This document shows, one piece after another, positions 32,771 through 42,170 of a DNA stretch of 42,170 bases; the stretch's first letter is position 1, and the number at the start of each line of letters is the position of its first letter. Source of the stretch: Rhodobacter sp. (GTDB taxonomy: Bacteria > Pseudomonadota > Alphaproteobacteria > Rhodobacterales > Rhodobacteraceae). The stretch lies in assembly GCA_013821825.1 (NCBI GenBank), contig PNJK01000028.1, positions 1 through 42,170 on the forward strand, given 5' to 3'. The notes beneath the pieces are model-generated. The model searched no databases and was not told where the DNA came from. It saw nothing but the letters and a program-made list of their open reading frames with translations. Position numbers and translations under genes: made by a program.

Positions 32771-33676
32771 TTAGCTACCTGATCCAAGGGCAGTTGTAAT
32801 GAAGTTCCGGAACACTTGCGCCGAGGCTGAGAGTGGTATGGCATTGGGCCATGTCAGTCCCACATCCATTGAGGGCACTGGTTCGACTGTCTGGCGCTGT
32901 TCGATCCTTTGGCCTTCCAGCGACCATGGCCGGTAGACCATGTCCGAGAGGATCGTCACCCCCATGCCCGCGGCCACCATGGAGCGGACGGCCTCCACGG
33001 AGGACGTGCTGAACACCACCTCGGGCACAAGCCCATAATGATCCCAGTAGCGGCCGGCGGTGCGGCTGGCCTCGTCCACGGTCAGCATCACATAGGGTTC
33101 GCGGGCGACATCGGCCAAAGTGATCTGGGTTTTGCTCAGGAGGTGATGGTCAGACGGCAGCCACAGCCGCCGCCGTGACCGGAACAGCGTTTCCGAGGCA
33201 AGATCGCCAACATTGGCGAGGTTGGAGGTCAGCATCACCGCAAGGTCAAGCCCGCCGCTGACCAGCGCATTCTCGATGGCCGCGCGTGGCTGTTCGGAAA
33301 GTTCAAGCATGATGCCGGGGTAGATCCGGCGAAAGGCAGCGTAATGGCGTGCCATGAAATATCCTGCGACCGTATAAGTCAGGCCCAGGCGCAGCCGCCC
33401 GGATACTTGTGTCTCCTCACCCAAGGGGCTGCGCGTGGCCTCTTCCACCGCCGAGATGATCGCCTTGGCCCGCGACAGGAACCGCGCGCCCTGCGGGGTG
33501 ACCGAGACCCCGGTGGCGCTGCGCGTCAGAAGTCGCGCGCCCAAGCTTGCCTCCAGGCTTTGGATGCCCGTCGTCACGGCGGACTGCGAGATGTTCAGTT
33601 CCATGGCCGCATGGCTGACCTGTCCGGTTTCCGCGGCGGCAATGAAATAGCGCATGTGTTTGAGGGTCAGGGACAT
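32771..33676 (-). CDS. LysR family transcriptional regulator
   Basis: A 301-residue LTTR with the N-terminal winged helix (MSLTLKHMRYFIAAAETGQV, AAMELNISQSAVTTGIQSLE, about 1-50), a linker helix, and a periplasmic-binding-type effector domain from about 90 (GRLRLGLTYTVAGYF). It is divergent from pxpA with a 109-base AT-rich gap, so it most likely controls the pxpA-accC-pxpBC operon in response to a pathway substrate. AAGG lies before ATG 33676. Confidence 0.9.
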   Translation of the reverse strand: MSLTLKHMRYFIAAAETGQVSHAAMELNISQSAVTTGIQSLEASLGARLLTRSATGVSVTPQGARFLSRAKAIISAVEEATRSPLGEETQVSGRLRLGLTYTVAGYFMARHYAAFRRIYPGIMLELSEQPRAAIENALVSGGLDLAVMLTSNLANVGDLASETLFRSRRRLWLPSDHHLLSKTQITLADVAREPYVMLTVDEASRTAGRYWDHYGLVPEVVFSTSSVEAVRSMVAAGMGVTILSDMVYRPWSLEGQRIEQRQTVEPVPSMDVGLTWPNAIPLSASAQVFRNFITTALGSGS

Positions 33677-33785: not shown

Positions 33786-34508
33786 ATGCCAGTCACGGTG
33801 AACTGTGACATGGGCGAAAGCTATGGGCTTTGGCGCATGGGCGACGACGCGGGACTGATGCCCCTGATCCACATCGCCAATGTCGCCTGCGGCTTTCACG
33901 CCAGCGACTTCGACCACATGCGCGCGACTGTGCGTCTGGCGAAAAAGCACGGCGTCAAGGTGGGCGCGCATCCCAGCCTGCCCGACCTGCAGGGCTTTGG
34001 CCGGCGCGAAATGAAGATGGGCCGCGAGGAAATGGCCAACTGCCTGATCTATCAGATCGGTGCCTTGACCGGATTCCTGCGCGCCGAGGGGGTGGAACTG
34101 AACCACATCAAGCCCCACGGCAGCCTCTACGGCATGGCCGCGCGGCAGGAGGATATTGCGAACGCGGTTTGCGATGCGGCCGATGTGTTCAAGGTGCCGC
34201 TTCTGGGCATGACCGGCACCTTGCACGAAAAGATCTACCCTGCCCGCGGGCATGGCTTTGTCGCCGAGTTCTATGCCGATCTCGAATATCGCACCGACGG
34301 CAGCCTGATCGTGACGCGCGAGCATGACGCCAAGGACCCTGCGCTTATGGCCGCGCGCTGCTTGCGGGCGATCAGGGAAGGCAAGGGCACGGCCACGGAT
34401 GGGTCGGACATCTCCGTGCGTTGCGACAGCATCTGCATCCATTCCGACACGCCGAACGCCATCGACATCGCCCGCGCCGTGCGCGCCGCCGTTCAACCCT
34501 ATACCTGA
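33786..34508 (+). CDS. pxpA: LamB/YcsF family protein, 5-oxoprolinase subunit A
   Basis: A 240-residue cytosolic protein of the LamB/YcsF family. The N-terminal VNCDMGESYGLW, IANVACGFHASDFDHMR, KVGAHPSLPDLQGFGRRE and LNHIKPHGSLYG blocks are the family's metal/substrate-site signature. In E. coli PxpA works with PxpB and PxpC to open 5-oxoproline to glutamate with ATP. Here it begins an operon that also encodes a biotin carrier and a biotin carboxylase, so the true substrate may differ. ATG 33786 sits after GGGGG; an earlier ATG at 33726 falls in the AT-rich control region. Confidence 0.9.
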   Translation: MPVTVNCDMGESYGLWRMGDDAGLMPLIHIANVACGFHASDFDHMRATVRLAKKHGVKVGAHPSLPDLQGFGRREMKMGREEMANCLIYQIGALTGFLRAEGVELNHIKPHGSLYGMAARQEDIANAVCDAADVFKVPLLGMTGTLHEKIYPARGHGFVAEFYADLEYRTDGSLIVTREHDAKDPALMAARCLRAIREGKGTATDGSDISVRCDSICIHSDTPNAIDIARAVRAAVQPYT

Positions 34509-34517
34509 GAGGTTCCC

Positions 34518-34751
34518 ATGGCCCAGATCCACTCGCCGCTTCCCGGCACCTTCTACCGCTCTTCTGCCCCCGACAAGCCGCCCTTCAAGGCCGATGGCGA
34601 TGCGGTTGCAGCGGGAGATGTGATCGGCCTCATCGAAGTGATGAAGTCCTTCCACGAGGTGAAGTCCGAGATCGCGGGCAAGAACATCCGCTTTGAATGC
34701 GACAATGAGGAACCGGTGATGGCGGGCATGGTTCTGGCGCAGGTGGATTGA
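34518..34751 (+). CDS. Stand-alone biotinyl carrier domain (BCCP-like)
   Basis: A 77-residue protein, essentially a single biotinyl/lipoyl domain. The biotin-site Lys is K43 in LIEVMKSFHEV (family pattern E-x-M-K). It lacks the Pro/Ala-rich N-terminal half of housekeeping AccB, so it is a dedicated carrier. It should shuttle carboxybiotin between the biotin carboxylase encoded next and the PxpB/PxpC carboxyltransferase-like pair. Its stop overlaps the next ATG by one base (TGATG). GAGAGG precedes ATG 34518. Confidence 0.88.
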   Translation: MAQIHSPLPGTFYRSSAPDKPPFKADGDAVAAGDVIGLIEVMKSFHEVKSEIAGKNIRFECDNEEPVMAGMVLAQVD

Positions 34752-36127
34752 TGCTGAAGAAGCTTCTGGTCGCCAATCGGGGGGAGATTGCCGTACGGGT
34801 GATCCGCGCGGCGCAGGACCTTGGGATTGCAACCGTCGCCGTCTATTCGGATGCCGACCGCGATGCCCTGCACGTGCAGATTGCTGATGAGGCCGCGAAT
34901 ATCGGCCCGCCCGCGGCGAAGAAAAGCTATCTCAACGTCGCCAACATCCTGAAAGCCGCGGCTGATACCGGCTGTGATGCGGTGCATCCCGGCTACGGCT
35001 TTCTGGCCGAGAACGCCGATTTCGCCGATGCCTGTGCTGGCGCTGGACTGGCCTTTGTCGGCCCTTCGGGCGACGCGATCCGCACCATGGGCGACAAGGT
35101 TGCCGCCCGCTCTGCCGCGCATGCCGCTGGCGTCCCGGTGGTGCCGGGCTCGCTGGGGCGGATCGGCTCGATCGACGAGGCGCGGCATATCCTGATCGAC
35201 ACCGGGTTTCCGGTGATGATCAAGGCCGCCGCGGGGGGCGGGGGCCGGGGCATCCGGATCGCGAATGATCTGGCCGAGTTCGAAGCCGCCTTTCCCCAAG
35301 CCGCCGCCGAGGCGCTGGCGGCCTTCGGCGACGGCGGGCTCTACATGGAAAAGGTCATCGCAAAGGCGCGGCATATCGAAGTGCAGGTGTTGGGCGATGG
35401 CAGGGACGCCGTGCATTGCTTTGAACGCGAATGCAGCCTGCAACGCCGCCGTCAGAAAGTCTGGGAAGAGGCGCCTTCCCGCGCCCTCTCGCCCCGCATC
35501 CGCGACGAGCTTTGCGCCAGCGCCGTTCGGCTGACCCGGGCTGTTGGTTACTCGGGCGCGGGCACCATCGAGTATCTTTATGACGACGAAGCCGACCGCT
35601 TCTACTTCATCGAGATGAACACCCGCATTCAGGTGGAACATCCCGTCACCGAGATGATCACCGGCATCGACCTTGTGGCCGAGATGCTGCGCATCGCCGG
35701 GGGCGAGCCGCTGCGGCTGCGCCAATCCGACATCATCCCGCGCGGCCATGCCATCGAAGTGCGCCTGAACGCCGAAGACCCCAGCCGCGATTTCGCGCCC
35801 TTCCCGGGCACGGTTTCGGCGCTTCGGGTGCCCGGCGGACCGGGAGTGCGGTTCGAGTCGATGCTCTATGCCGGCTACACCGTGCCGCCGTTCTACGACT
35901 CGCTTCTGGCCAAGCTGGTGGTCCATGCCGAAACCCGCGAGGCCGCGATCACCCGCCTTGTCCGCGCCCTTTCGGAAACCCGCATCGAGGGCCTGCGCAC
36001 CACCAAACCGCTGTTTCTGGCGCTGGCCAAAGATGACGCGGTCAAGGCCAACGCCGTTCACACCCGCTGGCTGGAAGGCTGGCTGGCAACCCATTCCTCC
36101 CGGCTGGTGCCGGAACTGGAACCATAG
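34751..36127 (+). CDS. accC: Biotin carboxylase subunit
   Basis: A 458-residue ATP-grasp enzyme that carboxylates biotin on the carrier with bicarbonate and ATP. Motifs: KKLLVANRGEIAVRVIRAAQ, HPGYGFLAENADFA, K116 in GDKVAAR, the glycine loop KAAAGGGGRGI (158-168), RHIEVQVLGDG, ERECSLQRRRQKVWEEAPS, and FIEMNTRIQVEHPVTEMITG. Length matches AccC. It is embedded between pxpA/BCCP and pxpB/C rather than beside accB or accA, so it likely serves this operon and not fatty-acid synthesis. Start ATG 34751, coupled to the upstream stop. Confidence 0.93.
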   Translation: MLKKLLVANRGEIAVRVIRAAQDLGIATVAVYSDADRDALHVQIADEAANIGPPAAKKSYLNVANILKAAADTGCDAVHPGYGFLAENADFADACAGAGLAFVGPSGDAIRTMGDKVAARSAAHAAGVPVVPGSLGRIGSIDEARHILIDTGFPVMIKAAAGGGGRGIRIANDLAEFEAAFPQAAAEALAAFGDGGLYMEKVIAKARHIEVQVLGDGRDAVHCFERECSLQRRRQKVWEEAPSRALSPRIRDELCASAVRLTRAVGYSGAGTIEYLYDDEADRFYFIEMNTRIQVEHPVTEMITGIDLVAEMLRIAGGEPLRLRQSDIIPRGHAIEVRLNAEDPSRDFAPFPGTVSALRVPGGPGVRFESMLYAGYTVPPFYDSLLAKLVVHAETREAAITRLVRALSETRIEGLRTTKPLFLALAKDDAVKANAVHTRWLEGWLATHSSRLVPELEP

Positions 36128-36135
36128 GAGGGACC

Positions 36136-37011
36136 ATGTCGATCCGATTCAGCTTTGGGGGCGACGAGCACATCTTCGCGGAAGTCAGCGAGGAAATGTC
36201 GCTTGAGGCCTTCTTCACCTCGCTGTCGATGACCAACGCGGTCAAGGCAGCGGGCATCAAGGGCGTGACCGAGATTTGCCCGGCCAACGCCAGTTTCCAG
36301 ATCAAATTCGACCCGGACCGCATCCTCCCAAGCGATCTGATGAAGGAATTGCAGTCGATGGAAGGGGCGGCGTCCAAGTCGGATGCCAGCTTGCAGACCC
36401 GGATCATGGAAATCCCGGTGCTCTATCAAGACCCCTGGACGCACGAGACCCTGATGCGGTTCCGCGAGCGCCACCAGAACCCCAATGCGACGGACCTCGA
36501 ATATGCCGCCGAGGTGAACGGGCTGGGCACGGTCGAGAACTTCATCAAGGCCCATTCCAGCCAGCCCTGGTTCGTCTCGATGGTGGGCTTCGTGGCCGGG
36601 CTGCCATTTCTGTATCAGATGGTGGAAAGGAAGCGGCAGTTGCAGGTGCCGAAGTACCTGCGCCCCCGCACCGACACACCGAAGCTGACCATTGGCCACG
36701 GTGGCTGCTTTAGCTGCATCTACTCGGTGCGTGGCGCGGGCGGCTACCAGATGTTCGGCGTCACGCCCATGCCGATCTATGACCCGACCCAAAAAGTCAG
36801 CTACCTGCAGGACGAGATGTGCCTCTTCAAACCGGGCGACATCGTGAAATGGAAGCCCGTCACCCGCGATGAATACGACGCCGCGATCGAGGCGGTGGAG
36901 GCCAATCGCTTTGAGCCGGTGATCCGCCCCGCCACCTTCAGCCTGACCGCATTCAACAAGGATATGGCGGGCACCAACGCCAGGCTGATGGAGGCTTTGA
37001 ATGGCCGTTAA
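36136..37011 (+). CDS. pxpB: PxpB/KipI-type carboxyltransferase subunit (AHS1 domain)
   Basis: A 291-residue protein of the AHS1/KipI family, longer than E. coli PxpB (about 218). The core PVLYQDPWTHETL and WFVSMVGFVAGLPFLYQM, and GHGGCFSCIYSVRGAGGYQMFG match the family's cyclophilin-like active half. KipI plus KipA domains make the carboxyltransferase part of urea carboxylase, and also the PxpBC pair. The N-terminal 85 residues are extra. Start ATG 36136, 8 bases after the accC stop; the 3' end overlaps pxpC by 11 bases. Confidence 0.88.
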   Translation: MSIRFSFGGDEHIFAEVSEEMSLEAFFTSLSMTNAVKAAGIKGVTEICPANASFQIKFDPDRILPSDLMKELQSMEGAASKSDASLQTRIMEIPVLYQDPWTHETLMRFRERHQNPNATDLEYAAEVNGLGTVENFIKAHSSQPWFVSMVGFVAGLPFLYQMVERKRQLQVPKYLRPRTDTPKLTIGHGGCFSCIYSVRGAGGYQMFGVTPMPIYDPTQKVSYLQDEMCLFKPGDIVKWKPVTRDEYDAAIEAVEANRFEPVIRPATFSLTAFNKDMAGTNARLMEALNGR

Positions 37012-37969
37012 TGTCATTTCTCCCGGTCTCTCGACCACCGTGCAAGACCTTGGCCGGCCCGGTTACTATCACCTCGGCATTCCGATCTCGGGCGGGATGG
37101 ACCGTTTCGCCTTGCGCGCTGCCAACATGCTGGTCGGCAATGACGAAGGGGCCGCCGTGCTGGAAGCCGTCTTCATGGGGCCGGAGCTCGAGTTTACCTC
37201 GGCCGCGACCGTGGCTGTCACGGGGGGTGATCTGCCGCCGAAACTGAACGGCGACGAGCGCAACACCTGGGAGGCCTTCCCGGTCAAGGCTGGGGATCGG
37301 CTGTCTTTCGGCTATCTCAAATCCGGCGCGCGGGCCTATATCGCGGTCTCGGGCGGCATTGATGTGCCGATGAAACTCGGCTCGCGGTCCACCTATACGC
37401 TGGGAGCCTTGGGCGGTCACGAAGGGCGGGCGCTGAAGGCGGGCGACAGCCTGCCCCTCGGCAAGGGCGCGGGCGGCAAGGGGGCGGTCCCGGCCAACCT
37501 GCGGCGGATGCCGGGAAATCCTGCGGAATTGCGCATGCTGCCGGGGCTTTACTGGCACCGGATCACCGCAGCCGCCGGAAAGCAGTTCTTTGCCGATACC
37601 TGGAAAGTGGCGCCCGAGGCCGACCGCATCGGCTATCGCTTCAAGGGCGGCACGGCGCTGGACTTCGTGCCGCGCGAACAGCCCTTTGGCGCAGGCTCGA
37701 ACCCGTCGAACATCGTGGACGCCTGCTATCCCTATGGCTCGATCCAGGTGCCGGGCGGGACGGAACCGATTGTGCTGCACCGCGACGCGGTGTCGGGCGG
37801 CGGCTACATGATGCTCGGCTGCGTGATCAGCGCCGACATGGACCTGATCGGCCAGCTGCAGCCGCATTCCCCGGCGCGGTTCGTCGAGGTGTCGATGGAT
37901 CAGGCGCTGGCCGCCCGCGCCGACCGGCTGGCCGCCCTTGGCCGCTTGCGAGGGCATCTGGGGCGGTGA
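37001..37969 (+). CDS. pxpC: PxpC/KipA-type carboxyltransferase subunit (AHS2 domain)
   Basis: A 322-residue protein of the AHS2/KipA family: VISPGLSTTVQDLGRPGYYHLGI at the start, SGGMDRFALRAANMLVGNDEGAAVLE, then AYIAVSGGIDVPMKLGSRSTYTLGALGGHEGRALKAGD and GGYMMLGCVISADMDLIGQ. Such proteins pair with AHS1 partners. It starts inside the 3' end of pxpB (ATG 37001), an overlap of 11 bases. It is the last gene of this operon and is followed by a cruciform-like element. Confidence 0.9.
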   Translation: MAVNVISPGLSTTVQDLGRPGYYHLGIPISGGMDRFALRAANMLVGNDEGAAVLEAVFMGPELEFTSAATVAVTGGDLPPKLNGDERNTWEAFPVKAGDRLSFGYLKSGARAYIAVSGGIDVPMKLGSRSTYTLGALGGHEGRALKAGDSLPLGKGAGGKGAVPANLRRMPGNPAELRMLPGLYWHRITAAAGKQFFADTWKVAPEADRIGYRFKGGTALDFVPREQPFGAGSNPSNIVDACYPYGSIQVPGGTEPIVLHRDAVSGGGYMMLGCVISADMDLIGQLQPHSPARFVEVSMDQALAARADRLAALGRLRGHLGR

Positions 37970-38052: not shown

Positions 38053-38997
38053 TCAGGATCGCCCGCGCGCCTCTTTCGGGGTCAACCCGAAGCGGGCACG
38101 GAAGGCGCGGGAAAACTGCGCCTGATCGGTGAAGCCGCGCGCATAGGCGATCTCGCCTATGGCGCGGCGGTCGGCGGGGTTTTTCAGGTCTTCCATGGCC
38201 GCCTGCAACCGCGTGTCGCGGATCCATTGGCCCAGCGTCATGTTGGTGTCGCGCAAAAGCTCGTGCAGATAGCGCACCGAAATCCCGCAACCTGCCGCCA
38301 CTTCTTCCGGCCCCAGATCCGGGTCGTCGATATGGCGGCGGACGAAGCTTTCGATCCGCGCCAGATGGGCCGTGCGCACGGACGACTGTCCCGACGTCAG
38401 CACCCGTTCGTCCGCCTGAATGGCCAGCGCCAGCAAATCCACCAGCTGCCTGCCCACAATACTGCGGGTCTCTTCGGTCATGCTGTCATAGCGCGCCGGG
38501 ATCAGGTGAACCATATCGACGAAAAGCCCGTTCGCGCCATTGGTCGCATCGAATTGCAGACTGCAAAAGCGGTCGGGCGCGCGGATGCGACCGCCCAGCA
38601 TTTCCTTCGACAGCTTCATTACCCACAGGTCAGCCTGTTCGGCATGGCTGAACTCGTATGGCTCGTGGCTGCGCTCGATGAAGAAGGCGCCGGGATTGGC
38701 CCGCACTTCCTTGCCGCCTTGCAAGAAGCGCAGTTCGGATTTGGCGGGCAGGGTAACCAGAAACTCCTCCGGCCCCGGTTCGCGGAAATGCTTGGGCAGG
38801 CGGCGGTAGATCAGCGGGTCCGAGGTCAGCCGCGACAGCGACACATCGCCCAGATCCCAGCTGGTCAACTCGCCGTCAAAGGCTTCGGGGCGCTGGAACG
38901 TCAGGTCCAAGGGGAAATAGGTGCGGGCAATGGTGTCATGCCAATGCCGACTGCGCCCCGACACATCAACCCCGCGCGTGGTGATCGTGGACTTCAT
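38053..38997 (-). CDS. AraC family transcriptional regulator
   Basis: A 314-residue regulator. The N-terminal two-thirds is an AraC-binding-like domain (LTFQRPEAFDGELTSWDLGDV, LPAKSELRFLQGGKEVRANPGAFFIERS), and the C-terminal 100 residues hold two helix-turn-helix units (GPEEVAAGCGISVRYLHELL and IGEIAYARGFTDQAQFSRAFRARFG). It is convergent with pxpC and divergent from hyuB, 253 bases away, so it probably controls hyuBA. I chose ATG 38997, 8 bases after GGGGA; ATG 39012 is five codons upstream and also possible. Confidence 0.88.
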   Translation of the reverse strand: MKSTITTRGVDVSGRSRHWHDTIARTYFPLDLTFQRPEAFDGELTSWDLGDVSLSRLTSDPLIYRRLPKHFREPGPEEFLVTLPAKSELRFLQGGKEVRANPGAFFIERSHEPYEFSHAEQADLWVMKLSKEMLGGRIRAPDRFCSLQFDATNGANGLFVDMVHLIPARYDSMTEETRSIVGRQLVDLLALAIQADERVLTSGQSSVRTAHLARIESFVRRHIDDPDLGPEEVAAGCGISVRYLHELLRDTNMTLGQWIRDTRLQAAMEDLKNPADRRAIGEIAYARGFTDQAQFSRAFRARFGLTPKEARGRS

Positions 38998-39250
38998 CGG
39001 CTGGTTCCCCATTTGCTTCAGAAGGCCACGGTCTGCACTTTGTGTAAAGCGGCGCGTTTCCCGCAGCCGGCCGACTGCACGGAAAGACAAAAGCCCGTGC
39101 ATCCGGCGCAAAGACGGAGCGCGCCTGCCGCGCATACGGTCCTTGTCACAAAGGCACAACAGATGCCGCGTGACAGGGAGAGCAATCGATTCGGACGGGC
39201 GATTGGCCCGGGCGATGCCCTTGGCGCGGCCCCAACCGGAGGGCTTCGTA
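38998..39250. promoter_or_regulatory. AraC-hyuB divergent control region
   Basis: About 250 bases without a gene, expected to hold both promoters and AraC half-sites. No clear dyad or consensus box could be picked by eye, apart from the hyuB ribosome site CGGAGGG at 39238-39244. An open frame through it on the plus strand is unlikely to be translated. Confidence 0.4.
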
Positions 39251-41032
39251 GTGGCCAGTAAAGCCAAACCAAAGGTCGAGGTTGACCCCATCACCCTGTC
39301 GGTGGTGCGCGGCATCCTTGAGACGACCCAGCGCGAGATGACGCTCAGTCTGGAGAAAACCGCGCGGTCCAGCGTGTTCAACCTGGCGCATGATTATTCG
39401 ACGGCGCTTTTCAACGCCACACCCGAGATGATCCTGCAAGGGCAGGACATTCCGATCCACCTCGGCTCCTTGATCCCGGCGATGAAGGTGGTGGCGGGAT
39501 ATTTCGAGGGTGACATCCACGAAGGCGACCTGCTGATCCACAACGACCCGGCCTGGGGCGGCAGCCATGCCATTGATACCTGCTTTTACAGGCCGGTGTT
39601 CTGGAAGGGTCGCCTGAAGTACTGGACCGTCTGCAAGGGCCACCTCACCGACATCGGTGGCCCGGTGCCGGCGGGTTACAACCCCAACGCCAAGGAAATC
39701 TATGCCGAATGCCTGCGCATTCCGCCCGTCAAGGTCTGGGACCGGGGGCAGCCGCGCAAGGATGTGCTGAACTTCATCTTCACCAACATGCGGGCGCGGC
39801 GTGATCAGGAAGGCGATTTCAACGCCCTGATCGGGGCCTGTCAGGTGGGCGAACGCGCCCTTCTGGCGATGCTCGAGAAATACGGCGAAGAAACGGTCGA
39901 TGCCTGCATCGAAACCCTGCTGAACATGGCTGAAAAGCAGATGCGCAGCCTGATTGCCGGGGTGCCGGACGGCACCTACGAAGGTAGCGCCATTCTGGAA
40001 GACGCCGGCCACGGCTTTGGCGATTTCGAGATCAAGGCGCGGGTCACCATCACCGGCGACAATTGCCACATCGAAATCTCCAGCCCGCCGCAGATCCCCT
40101 ATTTCATCAACAGCTATGAGGGGAACAGCTATTCCGGCGTCTATCTGGGCCTGATGATGTTCGCCCAGCTGCCGCCCCCCTATAACGAAGGGCTATACCG
40201 CTGCGTCAGCGTGAACATGGGCCCGAAGGGCACGATCTGCAACGCGGCAGAACCTGCGCCCCACATGAACTGCACCACGACGCCGATGGAAACCCTGACT
40301 GACGCCGTGCGGCTGGCCTTTGAAAAGGCGGTTCCGTCGAAGGTTTCGGCAAGCTGGGGTCATGCCAATGGCCTCAACATCGCCGGTTGGGACAAGCGCC
40401 ATGACGAGGAATATGTGACGATGGTGCTGGCCACCATCATCTCGGGCGCAGGCGCCACGCCCTCCCAGGACGGCTGGCACGCCTGCGGGCCGGAGTGCTG
40501 CTTTGGCGCGCTGACCTCGGGTGACGTGGAACTGCTCGAGTATTCCTACCCCATCATCATCCACCGCTATTCGCTGATGACCGACTCTGGCGGCGCGGGC
40601 AAATTCCGCGGCGGCTCAGGCACGGCCTGGGAAGTGGAGCCGCTGAGCGACGACATGACCTTCATCACCTTCGGCGAAGGCCGTCGCATCCCGGCAGTCG
40701 GCGCCGCAGGGGCTGCCAGCACCATGATCGACACCAAGGTGGGCCGTCTGGAACTGGTGGAAGGCGACCGTCAGGAGACCATCCGCGAGAACGTCATCAA
40801 GGTCATCAAGCCCGGTGACCGCGTTACCAACATGAACCCCGGCGGCGGCGGTTATGGCAATCCGATGGAGCGCCCGGTCGAGAAAGTCGTCTGGGATGTG
40901 AAGAACGGGCTCGTTTCCATCGAAGGGGCAAAGGAGGATTACGGCGTCATCATCAAGGACCCGACCACGCTGGACGTGGACATCGCAGCAACATCAGCCC
41001 TGCGCGCCAAACGCGCCGTGGCCGCGAGATAG
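39251..41032 (+). CDS. hyuB: Hydantoinase B/5-oxoprolinase family subunit
   Basis: A 593-residue protein of the HyuB family. KVEVDPITLSVVRGILE at the start, SSVFNLAHDYSTALFNAT, EGDLLIHNDPAWGGSHAID, GHLTDIGGPVPAG and MNPGGGGYGNP near the end are typical. With HyuA it makes enzymes such as N-methylhydantoinase, ATP-dependent 5-oxoprolinase, and acetone or acetophenone carboxylases. The strong CGGAGGG before GTG 39251 sets the start; longer in-frame starts from 38921 run through the regulator's leader. It precedes hyuA by 11 bases. Confidence 0.92.
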   Translation: MASKAKPKVEVDPITLSVVRGILETTQREMTLSLEKTARSSVFNLAHDYSTALFNATPEMILQGQDIPIHLGSLIPAMKVVAGYFEGDIHEGDLLIHNDPAWGGSHAIDTCFYRPVFWKGRLKYWTVCKGHLTDIGGPVPAGYNPNAKEIYAECLRIPPVKVWDRGQPRKDVLNFIFTNMRARRDQEGDFNALIGACQVGERALLAMLEKYGEETVDACIETLLNMAEKQMRSLIAGVPDGTYEGSAILEDAGHGFGDFEIKARVTITGDNCHIEISSPPQIPYFINSYEGNSYSGVYLGLMMFAQLPPPYNEGLYRCVSVNMGPKGTICNAAEPAPHMNCTTTPMETLTDAVRLAFEKAVPSKVSASWGHANGLNIAGWDKRHDEEYVTMVLATIISGAGATPSQDGWHACGPECCFGALTSGDVELLEYSYPIIIHRYSLMTDSGGAGKFRGGSGTAWEVEPLSDDMTFITFGEGRRIPAVGAAGAASTMIDTKVGRLELVEGDRQETIRENVIKVIKPGDRVTNMNPGGGGYGNPMERPVEKVVWDVKNGLVSIEGAKEDYGVIIKDPTTLDVDIAATSALRAKRAVAAR

Positions 41033-41043
41033 GGGGACATGAG

Positions 41044-42170
41044 ATGAAATCCGATTATCGTCTGGGCATTGACGCCGGCGGCACCTTCACCGACTTCGTT
41101 CTGGCCGACAAATCCGGTCAGGTCCGCCTGTTCAAGGCGCTTTCGACTCCGCAGGACCCGACCTTGGCCATCAAGAACGGGCTGGCTCTGATTTCCGAGG
41201 AACTGGGGGTTTCGGCCGAAACCGTGGTGTCGAACTGCGATCTGTGCATCAACGGCACTACTGTGGGGTTGAACGCGCTCATCACTCACAAGGGCGCCAA
41301 AACCGGGCTGATCTGCACGGCGGGCCATGAAGACAGCCTTGAAATCCGGCTGGGTCACAAGGAAGACGGCTACCGCTATGACCCGGAGTACCCGCCAGCC
41401 ACCATGCTGGTGCCGCGCTATCTGCGGCGCGGTGTGCGCGAGCGCATCCTGTCGGACGGCTCGATCCGTGAGCCTATGAACGAGGCAGACGTCCGTGCGG
41501 CCTGCGAATTGTTCAAGGCCGAAGGCGTGGAAACCGTGGCGATCAGCTTTGTCTGGTCGGTGCTGCGTCCTGAACACGAGGCCCGCGCCGGCGAAATCGT
41601 GCGGGAAATGATGCCGGGAGTGATACTCACGCTCGGGTCGGAACTTTATCCGCAGGTCCGCGAATACACCCGCACCTCGACCGCCGTGGTGAACGCCTAT
41701 CTGGCCCCGATCATGAAGCGCTATGTCGCGGCGGTGGACGCCTATTTCCAAAGCCTCGGAGCCAGGCAGCCTGTGCGCTATTACCAGTCGAACGGCGGGC
41801 TTGCCATCGGGCAGGCAATGACCGACCGCTCGGTCTATGCCATCAACTCCGGCCCCGCCTCGGCCCCGGCGGCTGGGCAATATGTCTGTGAGCCTTTCGG
41901 CAAGAAGGATGTCATCACCGTCGACATGGGCGGCACGTCCTTCGACATCACGCTGACCAAGGACGGGTCCACCAACATCAACAAGAACATCGACTTCCTG
42001 CGCTACCGGATCGGGGTGCCGATGATCCAGGTGGAAACCTTGGGTGCGGGCGGCGGGTCGATCGGCTGGATCGACGAGACGGGGCTGATGCAGATGGGGC
42101 CGCAATCTGCGGGGTCTGACCCCGGCCCGGCCTGCTATGGGCAAGGCGGCAAACTGCCCACCGTGTCGGA
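41044..42170 (+). CDS. hyuA: Hydantoinase A/5-oxoprolinase family subunit, 5' part
   Basis: Starts at ATG 41044 after AGGGGGA and remains open to the window end (375 codons). The phosphate-1-like motif LGIDAGGTFTDFVL, then NGTTVGLNALI, VREYTRTSTAVVNAYL, SNGGLAIG, SGPASAPAAGQ, TVDMGGTSFDITLT and ETLGAGGGSIGWID are the ASKHA-fold signature of HyuA, which binds and uses ATP to activate the substrate for HyuB. HyuA is usually about 690-700 residues, so nearly half lies outside. Order hyuB-hyuA rather than the more usual A-B. Confidence 0.93.
   Translation, partial: MKSDYRLGIDAGGTFTDFVLADKSGQVRLFKALSTPQDPTLAIKNGLALISEELGVSAETVVSNCDLCINGTTVGLNALITHKGAKTGLICTAGHEDSLEIRLGHKEDGYRYDPEYPPATMLVPRYLRRGVRERILSDGSIREPMNEADVRAACELFKAEGVETVAISFVWSVLRPEHEARAGEIVREMMPGVILTLGSELYPQVREYTRTSTAVVNAYLAPIMKRYVAAVDAYFQSLGARQPVRYYQSNGGLAIGQAMTDRSVYAINSGPASAPAAGQYVCEPFGKKDVITVDMGGTSFDITLTKDGSTNINKNIDFLRYRIGVPMIQVETLGAGGGSIGWIDETGLMQMGPQSAGSDPGPACYGQGGKLPTVS

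Follow-up and report, generated by a model that had tools for sequence, protein, structure and literature searches.

We analysed a five-gene operon, pxpA-BCCP-BC-pxpB-pxpC, on the plus strand (positions 33786-37969) of contig PNJK01000028.1 from Rhodobacter sp. (GenBank assembly GCA_013821825.1); the whole contig, 42,170 nucleotides, is referred to here as the window. The operon combines relatives of the three-part 5-oxoprolinase PxpABC with a biotin carboxyl carrier protein (BCCP) and a biotin carboxylase (BC), and judged by its sequence it looks like a urea carboxylase joined to the hydrolase of PxpABC. With a probability of about 0.58, the five proteins would form a split biotin-dependent carboxylase and a hydrolase that jointly open a cyclic amide (lactam). 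PxpB and PxpC are most likely a biotin-dependent carboxyltransferase, because they branch with urea carboxylase, carry its proposed general base (Lys173 of PxpB) and belong to a set linked to the gene bioY.

The first gene, pxpA (33786..34508), begins with ATG and encodes a LamB/YcsF-family hydrolase of 240 residues (LamB_YcsF, 300 bits). Nine bases downstream, the BCCP gene (34518..34751) encodes a 77-residue biotin carrier with a Biotin_lipoyl domain (NF005457, 115.5 bits against a cut-off of 87), in which Lys43 of the motif EVMKSF (codon 34644..34646) is the predicted biotin attachment site. This gene shares one base, 34751, with the BC gene (34751..36127), whose 458-residue product has all three BC domains (NF009471, 743 bits against a cut-off of 686). 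After a further 8 bases follows pxpB (36136..37011), which encodes a KipI-type protein of 291 residues (CT_C_D), the carboxyltransferase half with the proposed general base; it overlaps by 11 bases (37001-37011) with pxpC (37001..37969), which encodes the other half, a KipA-type protein of 322 residues (CT_A_B). The tight gene order, the 77-residue carrier with its EVMKSF lysine and the overlaps of one and 11 bases had all been described in the original prediction and were recovered here, whereas the stated excess of 85 residues in PxpB over its Escherichia coli counterpart had to be reduced to 73 (291 versus 218 residues).

Relationship to urea carboxylase and PxpABC

By the curated models tested, the operon qualifies neither as urea carboxylase nor as complete PxpABC 5-oxoprolinase. 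The window PxpA passed two subfamily models (NF003814, 272.2 bits, cut-off 226; NF003816, 228 bits, cut-off 213) and reached none of the three PxpA equivalog models. PxpB failed its equivalog model TIGR00370 (72.7 bits against 145.55), and PxpC failed NF045499 (214.1 against 500) while passing the broader domain model TIGR00724 (263.4 over 230.2). With the urea carboxylase model TIGR02712 (cut-off 1303.85), the separate proteins scored 532.7 (BC), 229.7 (PxpC), 108.7 (PxpB) and 17.8 bits (BCCP), PxpB thus scoring higher than with its own equivalog model; the operon contains no single polypeptide of about 1200 residues that passes TIGR02712. BC and BCCP exceeded the cut-offs of models named after acetyl-CoA carboxylase (NF009471, NF006367 and NF005457) and remained below those of TIGR00531 (BCCP) and TIGR00514 (accC). 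Profile searches found no AccA/AccD-type carboxyltransferase in the operon, whose carboxyltransferase genes are those with CT_C_D and CT_A_B, and all the parts of urea carboxylase (BC, BCCP and a KipA/KipI-type carboxyltransferase) are present.

In a tree of 78 PxpB+PxpC pairs, 26 rows of the window's clade shared one branch with 9 urea carboxylases and with 2 split forms (Shimodaira-Hasegawa-like approximate likelihood ratio test, SH-aLRT, 100), and the window clade formed its own sub-branch within it. The 40 remaining rows, made up of other standalone pairs and of a fused family linked to BC, fell outside together with E. coli. This tree and the PxpA tree described below were quick reconstructions without bootstrap and were flagged for long branches and unusual residue composition.

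A residue of known importance follows the same division. In urea amidolyase of Kluyveromyces lactis, Lys1605 is most likely the essential general base, and the substitution K1605A severely inhibits the enzyme, according to excerpts of PMC5770610. In our alignment this residue corresponds to Lys173 of the window PxpB (codon 36652..36654). Lysine occupied the position in all 37 rows on the urea carboxylase side of the 78 aligned, and arginine in the 41 others. PxpB Tyr204 and PxpC Asp240 split likewise, being replaced by tryptophan and serine, respectively, in 41/41 Arg-type rows. The stretch AGS-PSN-D-Y of PxpC (residues 231-243) looks like that of urea carboxylase, and the Arg-type rows show gaps or other residues there. 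Lysine was also found in 9/9 aligned plasmid loci (10 were fetched and L181 was left out), among them those of haloarchaea, Rubrobacter and Thermomicrobium.

Residues 5-268 of PxpB align with the carboxyltransferase of K. lactis urea carboxylase (264 residues). The predicted PxpB structure (mean predicted local distance difference test, pLDDT, 75.5) found its best fold matches in urea amidolyase/carboxylase (template modelling score on the query, TMq, 0.74/0.73; K. lactis urea amidolyase 0.74, E 6e-16), against E. coli YbgJ with a TMq of 0.52, a score on the target (TMt) of 0.72 and an E-value of 2e-9, in a comparison in which TMq favours the longer target. The comparison with the urea carboxylase carboxyltransferase proposed along with the original prediction therefore came out in its favour for the single-protein model of PxpB. 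The added length of PxpB had been put forward as support for a distinct subclass; urea carboxylase shares this added length, so the feature indicates which relative is the closer one, and we rejected it as a subclass mark by itself.

Compared with urea carboxylase and urea amidolyase (TIGR02712; K. lactis structures 3va7 and 5i8i), the window system shares BC, BCCP, the KipA and KipI carboxyltransferase halves, the general-base lysine, the PxpC stretch 231-243 and, in the proposed reaction, the overall logic of carboxylation followed by hydrolysis. It differs in being made of five separate proteins with a hydrolase of the LamB/YcsF family, in its own tree sub-branch and in a KipI part 23-30% identical to that of urea-carboxylase-sized frames. 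With prokaryotic 5-oxoprolinase PxpABC, encoded by ybgJKL in E. coli and present also in Bacillus subtilis and Corynebacterium glutamicum, it shares the three protein families (identical aligned residues with E. coli, 89/229 for PxpA, 61/214 for PxpB and 118/308 for PxpC). In contrast, the E. coli genes have no BC or BCCP beside them and encode arginine at the Lys173 position, and the window PxpB and PxpC miss the equivalog cut-offs while its PxpA belongs to a separate branch. A wider link between KipI/KipA pairs and biotin carboxylases fits a Mycobacterium smegmatis structure (PDB 9yx5), described in its record as the pair MSMEG_0435-0436 bound to a long-chain acyl-CoA carboxylase complex, although that pair is of the Arg type (VPRRAEP).

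Distribution, inheritance and link to biotin

We searched 397 genomes of the phylum with the window PxpB and obtained matches at E 1e-12 or better in 78. Nineteen genomes, including that of the window, showed at least 60% identity, followed after a gap by single rows at 38% and 34%. The matches below the gap were mostly frames of about 1200 residues (the size of urea carboxylase, with 23-30% identity in the KipI part), among which standalone PxpB proteins of about 250 residues appeared from 5e-21 on and at the end of the list. The five genes occurred in the same order in 16 of the 19 close genomes (the window and 15 of the 18 others), and one further locus (L065) was cut by a contig end at BC. 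A scan of named genomes yielded at least 572 confirmed relatives; among the best 80 of these (the named loci), 76 had the five genes in order and the other 4 had BC cut at a contig end. The gene-neighbourhood survey suggested with the original prediction accordingly finds the five-gene set together beyond chance in both samples.

In PLSDB, whose annotation is incomplete so that unlisted genes may exist, 90 plasmid records matched, haloarchaea and Rubrobacter among them. Haladaptatus, Halostagnicola and Rubrobacter have the five parts clustered too, in different orders. In Natribaculum the BCCP gene lies about 2.6 kb from pxpB-pxpC, with neither PxpA nor BC among the annotated genes of the 20.9 kb stretch. 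A plasmid of Thermomicrobium roseum, from another phylum (L189, 1-11382), carries in a row xanthine-dehydrogenase-type genes, a TorT importer, BCCP, KipI, KipA, PxpA and BioY, with no BC among the annotated genes of this stretch.

Other arrangements were also seen. Two intermediate split forms (L076 and L077, at 38% and 34% PxpB identity) have the orders pxpB-pxpC-BCCP-BC, with pxpA about 5.6 kb away, in L076, and BC-pxpB-pxpC-BCCP, without pxpA in the fetched stretch, in L077, which is possibly a split urea-type carboxylase. A third arrangement (L178, 1887-6112) runs BC-pxpB-pxpC-pxpA-BCCP and has an Arg-type PxpB. At L046 (1212-5645), accB- and accC-like genes are directly followed by a standalone-type pxpB-pxpC-pxpA, and the PxpBC encoded there may use the housekeeping BC and BCCP.

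The history of PxpA parallels that of the carboxyltransferase. A tree of 86 PxpA proteins united the 46 of the Lys-type loci in one branch (SH-aLRT 99) and the 18 of the fused family in another (SH-aLRT 99); the remaining 22, including that of E. coli, fell outside both. The two trees match, which indicates that PxpA and the carboxyltransferase were co-inherited class by class. The fused family is a second biotin-linked one, with pxpA, a fused KipI-KipA and a fused BC-BCCP at 18 loci (L054, L055 and L160-L175), for which the searches made turned up no family name; it too joins PxpA to a biotin carboxylase and carrier, but differs from the window system in its fused proteins, in arginine at the key position and in its separate branches for the carboxyltransferase (SH-aLRT 100) and PxpA. 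A second PxpA gene was noted on the minus strand near the right end of some loci (L097, L105-L110, L114, L116, L120-L122 and L154), flanked in most of them by a class III aminotransferase gene on one side and a molybdenum hydroxylase gene on the other. Four such copies were placed in the tree, where they formed a separate long branch.

Several features connect the operon to biotin. The motif EVMK was invariant in the BCCP of 77/77 loci, and the window BC kept 13/13 of the AccC catalytic positions checked. The gene bioY (Pfam PF02632), which encodes a biotin transporter, lay directly 3' of pxpC in 13 of the 77 named loci with at least 900 bases downstream. It was also found downstream of the operon in 2 of 18 phylum loci, and after pxpA in the Thermomicrobium cluster, where it is annotated as a biotin transporter. 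No bioY was detected at 18 fused-family loci or at 23 other loci, which had shorter flanks than the named loci (3-4 kb for these controls and 1.5 kb for urea carboxylases, compared with 10 kb); the claim of a link therefore rests on bioY standing directly after pxpC. The background rate was 31 matches in 41 genomes, under one copy per genome. The window operon does not adjoin bioY, the one copy in its genome being on another contig.

The same genome has one match each to CT_A_B, CT_C_D and LamB_YcsF, five matches to the biotin carboxylase N-domain, and a separate accB-accC pair on another contig (L003). The operon BC and BCCP thus have no other KipI/KipA partner in the genome; that they are its only acetyl-CoA carboxylase parts was considered and rejected in view of the separate pair.

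Proposed mechanism and competing explanations

In the proposed mechanism, BC would charge the biotin of BCCP with a carboxyl group at the expense of ATP and bicarbonate, and PxpB/PxpC would pass this CO2 on to the ring nitrogen of a lactam, with Lys173 of PxpB acting as the base, as in urea carboxylase with urea. The N-carboxylated lactam should be easier to hydrolyse, so that PxpA could cut the ring amide; the resulting N-carboxy amino acid would lose CO2, and the free omega-amino acid would pass to transaminases. ATP would pay for the unfavourable ring opening and CO2 would only be borrowed. The scheme applies to a ring, by analogy, the logic of urea amidolyase, which first turns urea into allophanate by carboxylation and then hydrolyses the latter (excerpts of PMC5770610). 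A need for ATP is apparent for such rings, given that hydrolysis of 5-oxoproline without ATP has an equilibrium constant of about 0.035 as quoted in excerpts of PMC13274462. The split urea-carboxylase-like machine with a LamB/YcsF hydrolase foreseen in the original prediction is well supported by the tree, the lysine, the PxpB fold, bioY, the intact BC and BCCP residues and the congruent PxpA history, while the lactam substrate, carboxylation on nitrogen and the role of PxpA are its conditional part.

A broader version, for which we see an even chance, holds that the system is a biotin-dependent lactamase and that the members of the PxpBC family are in general carboxyltransferases and not kinases; two or more of its lineages (the Lys type and the fused Arg type) would be joined to BC, and the standalone members would perhaps borrow the BC of the cell. 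If lactam opening by biotin is correct, it would be a new way of spending ATP on unreactive amide rings, and a widespread set of genes, at present annotated as acetyl-CoA carboxylase, as allophanate hydrolase subunit or as carboxyltransferase domain protein, would gain a function. It would also bear on how PxpABC itself works, because phosphorylation of 5-oxoproline by PxpB/PxpC is presented as an assumption in the portion of PMC13274462 that deals with it. Enzymes that open lactams matter for nylon-type monomers.

Several observations weigh against biotin-dependent lactam opening. PxpC by itself does not side with urea carboxylase: phmmer gave 161.7 bits for urea carboxylase versus 177.9 for E. 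coli YbgK, and the fold comparison gave a TMq of 0.82 for both, with the best E-value for YbgK. Residues 175-203 of the PxpB model, beside the active site, have a pLDDT under 50. Two clade loci (L071 and L072, from genomes G290 and G198) have pxpA-pxpB-pxpC with Lys173, but neither BC nor BCCP was seen in the 18.9 kb fetched, and the contig gave no BC match. All 18 fused-family loci, although linked to BC-BCCP, have arginine at position 173; the lysine thus marks a lineage, not biotin use as such, and we dropped it as a general mark of the latter. The 80 named loci are the nearest of the relatives confirmed, and those with a named family are mostly Rhizobiales or Rhodobacterales, so their counts are not independent, and neighbouring genes vary, several Rhizobium, Shinella and Agrobacterium plasmids having other neighbours. 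C. glutamicum uses PxpABC genes that have no BC next to them for growth on 5-oxoproline, as excerpts of PMC13274462 report. No biochemistry of the five-gene set, and no paper devoted to it, was found among the matches listed in searches of open-licence literature, as judged on titles and abstract openings.

Three other explanations were considered. The carboxyltransferase might act on an open-chain amide, a ureide or a guanidine-like compound whose carboxylated product PxpA hydrolyses, no ring being involved. The closest solved relative of PxpB is indeed urea carboxylase, the split BC-KipI-KipA-BCCP locus L077 shows no pxpA in its fetched stretch, and amidase-annotated genes lie near some loci; however, PxpA is a constant partner (in operon order in 76/80 named loci) whose relatives belong to 5-oxoprolinase, and genes of the HyuA/HyuB type are frequent neighbours, which makes a ring-free substrate unlikely. 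We consider it quite improbable that the operon encodes a conventional PxpABC 5-oxoprolinase whose PxpBC part phosphorylates the ring while BC and BCCP serve another enzyme such as acetyl-CoA carboxylase. The NCBI models do name BC and BCCP as acetyl-CoA carboxylase parts, two clade loci lack both, and phosphorylation is the assumed reaction of PxpBC (PMC13274462, in part). Yet a separate accB-accC pair is present in the genome, 16/19 clade genomes keep the five genes together, two haloarchaea and Rubrobacter have the same parts clustered in different orders, PxpB and PxpC fall short of their equivalog models (72.7 versus 145.55 and 214.1 versus 500 bits), and the pair branches with urea carboxylase.

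Most biotin-dependent carboxylases, as is generally held, form carbon-carbon bonds. The enzyme might accordingly carboxylate a carbon atom and PxpA act on a different amide, as two steps of one catabolic route. The second PxpA of Mesorhizobium and its relatives, encoded next to an aminotransferase and to a molybdenum hydroxylase, could also speak for such an arrangement. The KipI/KipA carboxyltransferase of known chemistry, however, that of urea carboxylase, acts on nitrogen to give allophanate (excerpts of PMC5770610), and the PxpA and carboxyltransferase lineages are matched class by class; we regard this explanation as very improbable. Biotin-dependent opening of a lactam is the explanation that we prefer.

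Gene neighbourhood and possible substrate

Neighbouring gene families were built from open reading frames picked by similarity, with no gene finder, and the family names rest on one or a few members each; the counts for HyuA, HyuB, LysR and the aminotransferase may therefore include other relatives. A LysR-type gene (32771..33676, minus strand; Pfam LysR_substrate/HTH_1) diverges from the operon and is likely its regulator; LysR-like genes were found at 67 of the 80 named loci, not always upstream. Permeases of Liv-type importers were present at 50/80, and TorT-type binding proteins or their permease at 29/80. HyuB-type genes occurred at 30 and HyuA-type genes at 25 of these loci, class III aminotransferases at 27 and molybdenum hydroxylases at 22, with 11 of each of the latter two in Mesorhizobium. 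In Ruegeria sp. TM1040, genes annotated as 4-aminobutyrate transaminase and succinate-semialdehyde dehydrogenase adjoin the operon. These neighbours fit a route in which an N-heterocycle is imported and oxidised to a lactam, the ring is opened and the amino acid is transaminated.

Downstream of the window operon lie three further genes. An AraC/FeaR-like regulator (38053..39381, minus strand, start uncertain), whose family occurs at 26/80 named loci, is a neighbour of the system. It is followed on the plus strand by a capB-like gene for a homologue of the caprolactamase beta subunit (39281..41032, true start slightly upstream; caprolactamase model NF050157, 1091.1 bits, cut-off 1000; 908 bits against the Pseudomonas jessenii chain 6yra_B, titled Hydantoinase) and by a HyuA-type, capA-like gene (41044..42168), which is cut by the contig end and was assigned by sequence and place. 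The P. jessenii caprolactamase CapAB (6yra) opens a lactam with ATP and bicarbonate, as reported in excerpts of PMC8453981, where a lactim carboxyester is one of three proposed mechanisms. It thus resembles the reaction proposed for the operon adjoining its homologue, but CapAB belongs to other protein families and is stated in the same source to be dissimilar to PxpABC. The AraC-type regulator with capB and capA (38053-42168) is possibly a second ATP-dependent ring-opening system beside the biotin-dependent one.

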